NCBI GenBank assembly: GCA_030550395.1 | Contig: JAUQPL010000001.1 | Coordinates: 1-64,000 of the forward strand | DNA from: Bacteroidota bacterium | GTDB lineage: Bacteria; Bacteroidota; Ignavibacteria; Kapaibacteriales; HRBIN21 | Reading direction: 5' to 3' | DNA: 64,000 bases | Shown here: positions 2,993 to 18,024 of the stretch, one piece after another | Numbering within the stretch: the stretch's first letter is position 1 | Layout: the number at the start of each line of letters is the position of its first letter | The notes under the pieces: generated by a model | Seen by the model: the letters and a program-made list of their open reading frames with translations, nothing else | Told to the model about the DNA's origin: nothing | The model's database searches: none | Position numbers and translations under genes: made by a program

Positions 2993-4138
2993 CTATGGTC
3001 GGGATTGAGGGTGGGTATTCTCGGTAGGATTGTCAATCCAATCTGCGATGAAGATGTTGATTTCGCCAGGATTTTGGGCATTACGGGTAGAGCAGAAAAC
3101 GAGTTTTTTGCCATTGCGGGTAAACATCGGGAAGCCATCGAAGCTGGCTCCATAGGTAATGCGTTTCAGCCCCGTACCATCTTCGTTGATGATGTAAAGG
3201 CTGAATGTACGCCGTGAAGGGTCATGCATGTTGGAGCTGAAGATGATGCGTTTGCCGTCGGGGTGAAAGAAGGGAGCAAAGTTTGCGGCGCCGTTGTTTG
3301 TCACTTGACGTATGCCGGAGCCATCAGAATTCATAACGAAGATCTCCGTGCGGTTAGGGCGGACCAATTGTTGATGGAGAAGCCGGCGGTACTCTTCCAA
3401 TTCAGCTTCAGTCTTGGGGTGGTAAGCTCGGTAGACGATCTTTGTACCGTCAAAGCTGAAGAAAGCCCCGCCGTCGTAACCAGGGGTAAAGGTAAGGCGG
3501 CGGAGATCAGTGCCATCCACCTTGCACGAGTATAGCTCTAGGTCCCCGTCACGGGCAGATGTAAAGACGATGTAATCTCCGCGGGGAGATACTGTCGCTT
3601 CGGCATCATAGCCATCGGTAGTGGTCAAGCGGTGGAGGAGAGTCATGGTGGCGGTATCTACTATGACTATGTCGTAAGTTGTGTAAATAGGCCAGACGTA
3701 GCCATGACGGCGGTCCGGAGGCGGCGGGCACATCGTGTCATACAGGTGGGTTGTGGCGTAGAGGAGGTGACCATTGGGGAGAAAATATGCACACGTAGTC
3801 CGTCCTGAGCCGGGGGAGATTTGTTTCCGGCGTCTTCCTGTTGTGTCCATGATAAAGATTTGGTCGCAATTGTAACCTGGGGGGGTTGCTTGGAAGCAGA
3901 GCATGTCTTCAGCAAAGGAGAAGTAGGCTTCTGCGTTTTTGCCGCTGAAGGTCAGCTGGCGAATATTCCGCAGATGGACTTCTCGGGGATCATGCAGAGG
4001 TTCTTGCATCAGTGCGACAAAAGGTGGGTCTGGACTCCAGGCGGGGGAAGCGGAGGAGGATATGGAGGAGAGCCAACCAGTGCATAGGAAGAAGGCCCCG
4101 AAGAGGAAGTCAAAGCGCTGGGAGGGTCTCATAGCCAT
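2993..4138 (-). CDS. TolB/PD40-type beta-propeller protein, probably periplasmic
   Basis: 381 residues with an N-terminal signal-like hydrophobic stretch (about 10-30) followed by repeated PD40 strands: SPRGDYIVFTSARDGDLELY, MNSDGSGIRQVT, HPDGKRIIFSSN, NEDGTGLKRIT and RNGKKLVFCSTRN. Such propellers occur in TolB and in secreted peptidase or surface proteins; the exact role is not evident. It is the last gene of the holB-ricT-acyltransferase operon. The ATG at 4138 lies inside the upstream gene, whose TGA ends at 4129; a second in-frame ATG at 4132 would make an exact ATGA overlap. Composition returns here to that of the rest of the window. Confidence 0.8.
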   Translation of the reverse strand: MAMRPSQRFDFLFGAFFLCTGWLSSISSSASPAWSPDPPFVALMQEPLHDPREVHLRNIRQLTFSGKNAEAYFSFAEDMLCFQATPPGYNCDQIFIMDTTGRRRKQISPGSGRTTCAYFLPNGHLLYATTHLYDTMCPPPPDRRHGYVWPIYTTYDIVIVDTATMTLLHRLTTTDGYDAEATVSPRGDYIVFTSARDGDLELYSCKVDGTDLRRLTFTPGYDGGAFFSFDGTKIVYRAYHPKTEAELEEYRRLLHQQLVRPNRTEIFVMNSDGSGIRQVTNNGAANFAPFFHPDGKRIIFSSNMHDPSRRTFSLYIINEDGTGLKRITYGASFDGFPMFTRNGKKLVFCSTRNAQNPGEINIFIADWIDNPTENTHPQSRP

Positions 4139-4869
4139 TTTAAGGCCTCTACCAGGGGACGGACTCGCTCGTCCAGGCTCCGCTGCCCTCGGAAGAGCTC
4201 CCGGAAGCCCTCCGGTACCTGGCGGGGATGGGTCCGGGCCAGGAGGGCATCCAGCTGGGTCAAGAGTTCCCCCAGGACCCTGGCGGGGTCTCGGTCCGGG
4301 GGGAGGGGTTCCCCCACCCAGAGGAAGGCCTCAGGGTGCTCGAAGCCCCTTAGGACCACCCGGCAGGCCACGGGGAGGAGGGGTACTCCAGCCTGGGCGG
4401 AGAGCCAGGCCGCCCCAGGGCGTAGGGAGCCCAGGGGTCCAAGGTAGCGCATCTCCCCTTCGGGAAAGACCGCCACCGACTCTCCCCGCTTCAGGCGGCG
4501 CAAGGCCTCCCGCACCCGCCCTGCCTCTAGGGCTCCTGCTAGGGCCAGGACGGGGAAGGCCTTTAAGTTCTCCTCCGCCACCAAGAGGCTCAAGGGGTGG
4601 TGGTGGAGCTGCCCCAGCAGCCAGACCAGGTGGCCGTCAAAGTAGCTGTGGTGGTTCATGGCCAGGACTAGGGGACCGGGCGGTACCTCTCCCCGCAGGT
4701 AGACCCCCCGGAGGCTTCGCCGGAGGGAAGCCCAGAGCATGCGCTCCACCAGGACCTTGAGCAGGCGGGCAAAGGGGCGTTCCGGGCTAAGCCTCATCGC
4801 AGGCGCCTCTGGGCCTCGGGGTGCCAGGCCAGGAGAGGATACCGGAATGAGGGTGAGGGGAAATCTCAT
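4129..4869 (-). CDS. PlsC-like acyltransferase of Thermus-like composition (likely horizontally acquired)
   Basis: 246 residues with the acyltransferase signatures NHHSYFD (72-78, the Hx4D catalytic pair) and FPEG (135-138), so it should transfer acyl groups to a glycerol-phosphate-like or lysolipid acceptor at the membrane. The sequence is far richer in G+C than its neighbours: 44 of 60 bases in line 4201 and 42 of 60 in line 4321, against 31 of 60 in line 3301. It uses Leu/Arg/Gly/Pro/Ala-rich protein and CTC, GGG, CCC, AGG codons as Thermus does. It overlaps both neighbours: ATGA with the gene before it (4866-4869) and about 10 nt with the gene after. The start at 4869 fits the overlap; Met25 at 4797 is the start expected for the plain family fold. 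Origin is inference from composition. Confidence 0.85.
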   Translation of the reverse strand: MRFPLTLIPVSSPGLAPRGPEAPAMRLSPERPFARLLKVLVERMLWASLRRSLRGVYLRGEVPPGPLVLAMNHHSYFDGHLVWLLGQLHHHPLSLLVAEENLKAFPVLALAGALEAGRVREALRRLKRGESVAVFPEGEMRYLGPLGSLRPGAAWLSAQAGVPLLPVACRVVLRGFEHPEAFLWVGEPLPPDRDPARVLGELLTQLDALLARTHPRQVPEGFRELFRGQRSLDERVRPLVEALKWL

Positions 4870-5948
4870 GTGAGCTCTTCTTCGGGAGGGAGACTTTCTT
4901 CCTCGTCTTTGCCAGGGGATTCGGCAAGCTCGGGGGTTGTAGGTATTTCGACGCGTCCCTGTTCTTGGAGTTGCTTGACTTGCTCTAGGGAGAGAGTTAG
5001 AGGAAGACCTGTTTCTAAGAGCTGGAGTTGAAGCTGTTGGCGCAGAATATCCAGTTTCACAATCTTAGCGGGACCGCCGTCGGTGTGTACGATAGCATTG
5101 AGCGGAGGATAGTGCTGGAGGGCTTCCCGGTAGAGCTGCAGTTCGTAGAGGAGACAACATTTGAGGCGTCCACAAAGGCCACTCAGGCGGAGGAGGTTGA
5201 ATTGAAGCTGTTGGGTTCGAGCAGCGTTCAGCGGAACGGGTTGACATTCGCGAAGGAAGGTTGCGCAACAGAGCTCGCGTCCGCAAGGTCCGATACCGCC
5301 GAGCCGGCGAGTTTCATCGCGAGCTTGAATCTGGCGAAGTTCAATACGGGTGCGAAAGCGCTGACTCATGAGGCGGACGTATTGGCGGAAGTCTACACGC
5401 TCGGGAGCAGTAAAGTAGAGGATAAGCCGGCGGCGATCCCATTGCCACTCGGCGTCGGTGAGCTTCATCTGCTCCAGCTCTGGTAGAGTTTTCGCTAAAC
5501 GACGAGCCTCGCGGAGGATGTCGAGCTCTTCTTGGCGGTTCTGGTTGTAGCGTTGAACGTCTTCGGGGGTAGCTTTCCGTAGGATAGTTTGCTCAGGTTC
5601 CGCTCCGTTGTAGAAGAGTTGTTGTTTCCGTTGTGCTTCTTTACCTAAGGCGCTGACGCGTCCGGCATCAGTTCCAAAGGGTGAGGTAACGAGGACTAGT
5701 TCCCCATACTGGAGGACAAGCTGCCGAGGGTTTGCGAAGAGAGCTTTACGGTGCCCTTTGAACTCTACCTCTACAATCGGTGAAGGCGGAGGAGGGGCGT
5801 CGGAGGGCGAAGGGGGAATGGTCAGTTCGCTGGTGCACGCCGTGCAGCCGCTCGGACGATGCTGGAGTGACGGGGCAATAGCGTCCGCAGCGCTGCTGGG
5901 AGTAGTACTGCCGGGGAGCGTAACGTTATGGACCGATAGGAAGAGCAT
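4866..5948 (-). CDS. PSP1-domain protein, RicT (YaaT)-like
   Basis: 360 residues with the PSP1/RicT core: VEVEFKGHRKALFAN near 59-73, VTSPFGTDAGRV near 87-98, TPEDVQRYNQNRQEE near 127-141, then the conserved cysteine blocks GPCGRELCC (220-228) and LCGRLKCC (258-265). In Bacillus, RicT works with RicA and RicF as an Fe-S complex affecting mRNA processing; outside Firmicutes its role is less clear. The protein is longer than the roughly 275-residue family norm, with a Ser/Pro-rich N-terminal tail containing an extra CTAC and an acidic C-terminal tail (EDEEE-like). It overlaps holB by 23 nt and the acyltransferase by ATGA. ricT-holB adjacency is a common bacterial arrangement, which supports both calls. 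Confidence 0.85.
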   Translation of the reverse strand: MLFLSVHNVTLPGSTTPSSAADAIAPSLQHRPSGCTACTSELTIPPSPSDAPPPPSPIVEVEFKGHRKALFANPRQLVLQYGELVLVTSPFGTDAGRVSALGKEAQRKQQLFYNGAEPEQTILRKATPEDVQRYNQNRQEELDILREARRLAKTLPELEQMKLTDAEWQWDRRRLILYFTAPERVDFRQYVRLMSQRFRTRIELRQIQARDETRRLGGIGPCGRELCCATFLRECQPVPLNAARTQQLQFNLLRLSGLCGRLKCCLLYELQLYREALQHYPPLNAIVHTDGGPAKIVKLDILRQQLQLQLLETGLPLTLSLEQVKQLQEQGRVEIPTTPELAESPGKDEEESLPPEEELT

Positions 5949-16773: not shown

Positions 16774-17910
16774 CTATGGAGTGTGTGGGCGATACAGGCG
16801 TCCTTTCCACTGAAGGCGACCGGTAATGCTCCAGCGGTAGGAGTTAAGAGCGATAGCGCACAGGAGAAGGGCTGCAAGGGGTTGGAACCATATTTGGGCT
16901 TTGGGGAGCTTGAACGTTTGGCTGACTTGCCATCGGAGAAGAACACTCATCCCGTAGCTAAGGAGTCCGAGAAGGCTCCAGAGAGCGTTGCCGTAGAGCA
17001 CACCTACTACAGCAGCTACGGGCGGCAGGACGAAAAACACCAGTAGGTGCAGCAGGAAGCCCCAGAGAATCCATGGTCGGTAGCCCATGGCGGGATACAT
17101 ATTTTTGGAAAATCCAGCGATCGCTTCGGCAGAACTTTCGTACATGCGGCAATGGACTAATCCGTTGCCATCGGCAATGGGGGCTTCTCCGATGGCACGG
17201 GCGACGCGCTGTCCTAAGGCGATATCCTCCGCCAGTTTGGCTCGCACGGCTTCGTGTCCGCCAATCTCCCAATATAGGCGGGCTTCCATCAGGAGGGCCT
17301 GGCCACTGGCGGCATGGAAGCTCGGCAAGAAGCGCCTCCAACTGTCCGGGATGTAGGCGAAGTAGATGATATACAGCTGAGGGATGATGAGGCGTTCGGC
17401 AAAGCTGTGCATGACTTCTGCTGGAAGAACGGATACGAAGCGCCATCGGTGCTGAAGACACTCCCGTATCAGCGAGGGGAGAGCAAGAGGATGGAAGACG
17501 GTATCGGCATCGGCGAAGAGAAACCACTCCCCACGGGCAGCTTGTGCAAGCTGCCAGCATGCCCAGGCTTTACCAATCCATCCCTCGGGAAGTGGGGCTC
17601 CACGGAGGACTCGCAGTCGCTCAGGATATTGGGTTCGGAGATGTTCAAGGATGTCCAATGTGGCATCCGTAGATTCATCATCCAGCACCACGACTTCGTA
17701 GGAGGGATATTCTTGGCGACAGAGGGAGTGGAGGCAGGGGGCAATGCGTTCGGCTTCGTTCCGTGCCGGCACTAATACCGAAATGAAAGGAGCCTCGCAC
17801 GAGGTGTCCCACCGCCCGGGCTCCAGACGAGGCAGACGCTGCAGATTCCGCCAACATGTTCCGTTGAAAAGCGCTAAGGCAGCGCTGGCGAGGGTGAGGA
17901 GCAGTTCCAT
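16774..17910 (-). CDS. Membrane GT2-family glycosyltransferase (CrtQ-like)
   Basis: 378 residues: N-terminal anchor (MELLLTLASAALALF), GT-A domain with ISVLVPARNEAERI, VVVLDDESTDAT, LFADADTVFHP (DxD), acceptor-side SGQALLMEA and LAEDIALGQRV (ED), and several C-terminal membrane helices (WILWGFLLHLLVFFVLPPVAAVVGVLY). This layout is that of CrtQ and related hopanoid/carotenoid glycosyltransferases; the acceptor here is unknown and no carotenoid genes are visible. Start 17910 is chosen over 17961 because a TAATTTTG box lies at 17935-17942, between the two. Its 3' end is 26 nt from the adk promoter box. Confidence 0.85.
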   Translation of the reverse strand: MELLLTLASAALALFNGTCWRNLQRLPRLEPGRWDTSCEAPFISVLVPARNEAERIAPCLHSLCRQEYPSYEVVVLDDESTDATLDILEHLRTQYPERLRVLRGAPLPEGWIGKAWACWQLAQAARGEWFLFADADTVFHPLALPSLIRECLQHRWRFVSVLPAEVMHSFAERLIIPQLYIIYFAYIPDSWRRFLPSFHAASGQALLMEARLYWEIGGHEAVRAKLAEDIALGQRVARAIGEAPIADGNGLVHCRMYESSAEAIAGFSKNMYPAMGYRPWILWGFLLHLLVFFVLPPVAAVVGVLYGNALWSLLGLLSYGMSVLLRWQVSQTFKLPKAQIWFQPLAALLLCAIALNSYRWSITGRLQWKGRLYRPHTP

Positions 17911-17934
17911 TAGAGGCTTCAAGTAGGTTGGCAA

Positions 17935-17942
17935 CAAAATTA
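17935..17942 (-). promoter_or_regulatory. Promoter -7 box (TAATTTTG) for the membrane glycosyltransferase
   Basis: CAAAATTA on the plus strand reads TAATTTTG towards the gene, 25 nt before ATG 17910; it decides the start. Confidence 0.5.
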
Positions 17943-18024
17943 CCCCTGTGCCATGGTTCAATGCCCATGAGCGGGCGTACCATTAAGGCGCAAGGGCAGT
18001 GTGGCCCTGGCTTTCTCTGTAGGA

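Follow-up and report, generated by a model that had tools for sequence, protein, structure and literature searches.

How did a gene resembling those of Thermus come to sit, with reading frames overlapping on both sides, among the native genes of a bacterium from another phylum? The window (the whole 64-kb stretch of DNA analyzed here) carries a T9SS sorting domain (TIGR04183) that points to the FCB group, and also a 246-residue acyltransferase ORF at 4129-4869. An initial annotation of this ORF noted its raised G+C and its overlaps with both adjoining genes, and both observations hold. The ORF overlaps the upstream ricT gene by an ATGA (4866-4869) and the downstream PD40/TolB-like ORF by 10 nt (4129-4138), where a second ATG at 4132 produces another ATGA. 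Its core coding sequence (4132-4797) has a GC content of 0.688 and a GC3 of 0.815, compared with GC3 values of 0.51-0.60 in five native neighbor genes. Across the 64 kb (500-bp windows: mean 0.563, sd 0.026, peak 0.702), the acyltransferase region alone exceeds 0.63 GC. Elsewhere in the window, a gene for a T9SS-sorted protein at 32-1446 is apparently broken into ORFs 32-472, 547-1062 and 1123-1446, and is perhaps a pseudogene.

The protein belongs to the LPLAT/PF01553 acyltransferases. In a Pfam profile search, the translation of 4129-4869 scored 43.9 bits against PF01553 (gathering cut-off 23), and its catalytic motifs NHX4D (as NHHSYFD) and FPEG are intact. Against the PlsC model TIGR00530, it reached 34.3 bits, below the curated cut-off of 102.95. 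In a scan of public genomes, its nearest homologs were from Thermus; a few from Bipolaricaulota/Acetothermia and one Caldipriscus record were more distant. The best of 27 Thermus-genus genomes (G048) encodes a protein 87% identical. A phylogeny placing the protein within the FCB bacteria would have argued for a native gene; instead, the protein tree separates Thermus and the window protein from the native PlsC homologs of the host's order (support 100/99), with the window sister to Thermus G048 (support 74/91). In the nucleotide tree of the core, the window is again sister to G048 (support 100). The protein thus groups with the acyltransferases of the Thermus crt operon and not with the host PlsC, and we call it CruD-like; its description as Thermus-like was correct.

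Some homologs occur in other settings. In a Bipolaricaulota MAG, an acyltransferase of this kind with 60% identity (L008, 3492-4136; GC 0.70) adjoins an apparent oligopeptidase gene outside any carotenoid cluster, and this is perhaps another lone transfer among thermophiles. Within Thermus, the acyltransferase of G060 (C2:108943-109625) is apparently split into two overlapping fragments that contain stops, and a close copy is missing from G046, G054, G061 and G064; the gene can thus be lost in Thermus.

The foreign DNA does not coincide with the ORF. In contrast to the earlier view that composition changes at the two ORF ends, sequence matching Thermus begins at 4835, roughly 34 bp downstream of the 5′ end of the ORF, and stops about 106 bp past the 3′ end (4023), in the next gene. 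The features of the locus, as we read them, are as follows.

4866..5948, minus strand: native ricT (PSP1/RicT family), the upstream neighbor, from an NF041131 match above cut-off and synteny
4840..4869, minus strand: first ~10 native PD40 codons (MRFPLTLIPV), with the ATG overlapping the ricT stop, from congeners G001-G003
4129..4869, minus strand: acyltransferase ORF, 246 aa, PF01553
4023..4835, minus strand: foreign segment (crtY tail, cruD-like acyltransferase, cruC head), from blastn to Thermus
4797..4835, minus strand: Thermus crtY 3′ remnant, last 12 or 13 codons, 97% identical to L129
4129..4797, minus strand: full-length cruD-like acyltransferase CDS of Thermus type, beginning at the original Thermus ATG and running to the stop
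4023..4132, minus strand: Thermus cruC 5′ remnant (GT2 glycosyltransferase) with its own ATG and a net 7-bp deletion
2993..4021, minus strand: native PD40/TolB-like beta-propeller body, from FVALMQEPLHD onward, from identity to congeners

The segment is 813 bp long, its junctions can be placed to within a few bases (4836-4839 and 4022), and it matches positions 6436-7255 of L129, a locus of Thermus G048, with 88% identity over 820 blastn columns. This is one continuous collinear match over three consecutive Thermus genes that ends inside both outer genes, which also establishes that the transfer ran from Thermus to the host. In Thermus, the corresponding stretch opens with the 3′-terminal 12 or 13 codons of a lycopene cyclase gene (domain TIGR03462/PF18916), continues through the acyltransferase and ends ~38 codons into a family-2 glycosyltransferase gene. 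In the window, the acyltransferase still lies between remnants of crtY and cruC. The same Thermus operon includes a phytoene desaturase and a cytochrome P450 that is CYP175A1-like by position. In the host, the original acyltransferase start at 4797 has become internal to a longer ORF, which runs from the native PD40 start through the crtY remnant, now read in a different frame as part of an N-terminal extension, and into cruD.

We also considered transfer of the whole operon and rejected it, as the host genome holds only these 813 bp of the 12-kb Thermus operon region. The segment is the only strong match to that region in the entire recipient genome; a second match covers 92 bases at 71% identity (17504-17595) and lies inside a native glycosyltransferase gene.

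The same locus in four congeners (G001-G004) shows what preceded the insertion. In all four, a PD40/TolB-like gene directly follows ricT with no acyltransferase between them, and in G001-G003 the PD40 ATG overlaps the ricT stop as ATGA and leads into an uninterrupted signal peptide. The PD40 gene is single copy in the host genome, and its body is 74-82% identical in the four congeners from query residue 40-43 onward and strongly constrained (dN/dS 0.05-0.11). The MRFPLTLIPV codons, native judging by where they lie and how they read, are severed from their own gene and now open the acyltransferase ORF. The native flanks remain in phase, and rejoining the 10 codons to FVALMQEPLHD gives a leader of 21 residues, compared with 22 in G003 (MRWVLLSLLLCYIGYAQEPLHD). 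The insertion therefore struck PD40 within its signal-peptide region, between about codons 10 and 11, and cost it one codon or so at most. The insert is present in the host (G000) only. Thus, the site is empty in relatives and the native sequence is preserved around the insert, as in gene acquisition by illegitimate recombination.

These comparisons bear directly on the earlier proposal that a native plsC-like gene had been precisely replaced by homologous or in-frame exchange. Overlaps on both sides and an operonic position would suit such a replacement, and comparison of the locus in relatives does support a foreign insertion. It lends nothing to a native plsC there: the site is empty in four congeners, the PlsC of the genus is encoded at a different locus that the host has kept (G000:C9), and the junctions lie inside the neighboring genes, neither of them at a gene end. 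We rejected replacement on the basis of the empty sites and regard it as the least credible of the explanations weighed here. The foreign gene is indeed translationally coupled at both borders, but the overlaps pre-existed and are no sign of precise exchange. Both borders look precise because the upstream ATGA is that of the host ricT and PD40 genes, while the downstream ATGA is that of Thermus cruD and cruC. Our preferred reading, which we consider very probable from the sequence comparisons, is that 813 bp from a Thermus carotenoid operon (thermozeaxanthin-type) were inserted into the PD40 gene, with no native gene lost.

Could Thermus DNA instead have been falsely joined into the contig during assembly or binning? 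The insert is known from a single genome, the habitat is probably shared with Thermus, and 4 kb separates the locus from the end of its 465-kb contig. However, a chimera would need two joins in the same native gene with no native codons lost, around a fragment of merely 813 bp, while the rest of the 12-kb Thermus region is absent from the host genome. It would also have to accommodate a frame-correcting 7-bp loss and a level of divergence unlike the product of an assembly join, distributed unequally over the parts of the segment (identity to G048 of 97% for the crtY tail, 89% for cruD and 83.5% for the cruC head). Finally, third positions have shifted to host composition: counted against outgroups, the window lineage shows 16 S>W changes and 1 W>S. 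We consider a chimera very improbable.

The third positions of the segment have ameliorated towards host composition, as the GC3 of the window core (0.815) lies between that of G048 (0.887) and that of the native genes (0.51-0.60). The core of 222 codons contains no stop or frameshift, about 16 synonymous and 6-8 non-synonymous codon changes are unique to the window lineage, and omega to G048 is 0.23-0.29, so the acyltransferase frame is intact and under purifying selection. Because third positions drifted hostwards while the frame stayed intact under selection, we take the segment to be, in all likelihood, a genuine and established integration and not an assembly join. Part of the divergence on the window lineage may predate the transfer, as the nearest available Thermus, at 88%, is not the true donor strain. 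With dS of 1.5-3.3 to the congeners (near saturation) and about 0.26-0.32 to G048, the transfer is much younger than the split between the host and these congeners.

The PD40 ORF now starts at the old cruC ATG (4132), or at a new upstream ATG at 4138. Compared with its nearest relative in Thermus, the segment has a single indel region, where the cruC remnant is a net 7 bases shorter (one event or two); the lost bases are present in G048 and in all six Thermus sequences first aligned. A loss of seven bases shifts the reading frame: were those bases still present, the cruC start and PD40 would be read in different frames, and with the loss the two are in frame. The resulting leader, MRPSQRFDFLFGAFFLCTGWLSSISSSASPA-WSPDPPFVALMQEPLHD, has a basic start, a hydrophobic core and a small-residue end. 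Its hydrophobic stretch, FDFLFGAFFLC, has a mean hydropathy of 2.0 (congener leaders, 1.7-2.7); SSISSSASPA comes next, where positions -3 and -1 carry small residues. Judged by hydropathy and the small-residue rule, the new leader is probably a working signal peptide.

We then asked what the acyltransferase might do in this host. The CrtI family had no hit over cut-off in G000 or the three congeners searched, which makes a carotenoid substrate unlikely, and we disfavor carotenoid acylation in the host on the same grounds. For the two SQS_PSY genes of G000, the best-matching models are HpnD and HpnC (squalene/hopanoid synthesis), with scores slightly short of the curated cut-offs. A native GT2 glycosyltransferase gene (16774-17961), conserved in the genus, encodes a protein 39% identical to a Thermus CruC-like enzyme; among NCBIfam models, it matches the hopene-associated HpnB best, although its 193 bits fall short of the cut-off (379). 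The acyltransferase might make an acylated glycolipid other than a carotenoid, a guess that we rate as doubtful.

Alternatively, the same insertion could have left a decaying passenger, with the acyltransferase or the hybrid PD40 leader non-functional and PD40 made from an internal start and unexported. The probable absence of a carotenoid-glucoside substrate, given no crtI-family hit above cut-off in the congeners searched, fits this scenario, as do changes at 5 of the 99 columns invariant in 14 Thermus homologs, more than in most homologs (mostly 0-4, one 8). Against it, the catalytic motifs are kept, the 222-codon frame is intact with 16 synonymous and 6-8 non-synonymous changes on the window lineage, and without the 7-bp loss the hybrid leader would not be in an open frame with PD40. 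We consider a non-functional passenger unlikely, but far less so than a chimera or a replacement.

For a functional insertion, we propose the following course. Free Thermus DNA would have been taken up and integrated by illegitimate recombination, either non-homologous or at microhomology; the junctions are ambiguous by about 4 bases, which masks any microhomology or anchor. Viral contigs scanned for the left junction yielded no match. As the locus now stands, the native start coupled to ricT opens the acyltransferase ORF, and the old cruC start, ATGA-coupled to the acyltransferase stop as in Thermus, opens the PD40 ORF. The 7-base loss would have followed the insertion, selected for restoring PD40 translation and export, and the acyltransferase would be made in the host and acylate a glycosylated or lyso-lipid other than carotenoid glucoside. 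Taken as a whole, the idea that a random piece of a foreign operon in an export signal became a new signal peptide through one small deletion, while the captured enzyme gained a native start and a new lipid substrate, is one that we advance tentatively, at somewhat less than even confidence. If true, a single event would have added a gene and rebuilt one of the host's own, each translationally coupled. In literature searches, we came across no relevant precedent in which a frameshifted piece of foreign DNA had given rise to a signal peptide.

By the time most transferred genes are observed, their junctions have been erased; here the donor operon, the empty site and both junctions are identifiable. 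The locus thereby lets one read the entry of a non-homologous fragment, the takeover of translational coupling and the use of foreign sequence to repair an interrupted gene. The case shows, too, that a gene may be tightly coupled through ATGA on either side without having precisely replaced another.

Among known systems, the closest is the crtY-cruD-cruC operon of Thermus thermophilus HB27 (TT_P0060-TT_P0062); a metabolic model (PMC4021367) gives these genes the names CrtY, CruD and CruC. The window shares its gene order and ATGA overlaps, and the fragment is 88% identical in DNA to a Thermus genome carrying this operon. We equate TT_P0061 with the same acyltransferase by gene order and by those names, not by direct comparison. 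In contrast to the Thermus operon, the window has only 813 bp, with cruD whole, crtY and cruC cut, and the rest absent from the host. PlsC-type 1-acylglycerol-3-phosphate acyltransferases (PF01553/TIGR00530) have the fold family, HX4D and FPEG in common with the window protein, but its 34 bits against the TIGR00530 cut-off of 103 and the tree part it from host PlsC. As for mechanism, double illegitimate and homology-facilitated illegitimate recombination have been described in natural transformation (Hulter and Wackernagel, 2008, and de Vries and Wackernagel, 2002, both as cited in PMC4437187). The window resembles such events in that a short, non-homologous foreign fragment was added at a chromosomal site and Thermus DNA accounts for almost all of the bases between the native flanks. 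It differs from them in being a natural, inter-phylum event that has diverged since.
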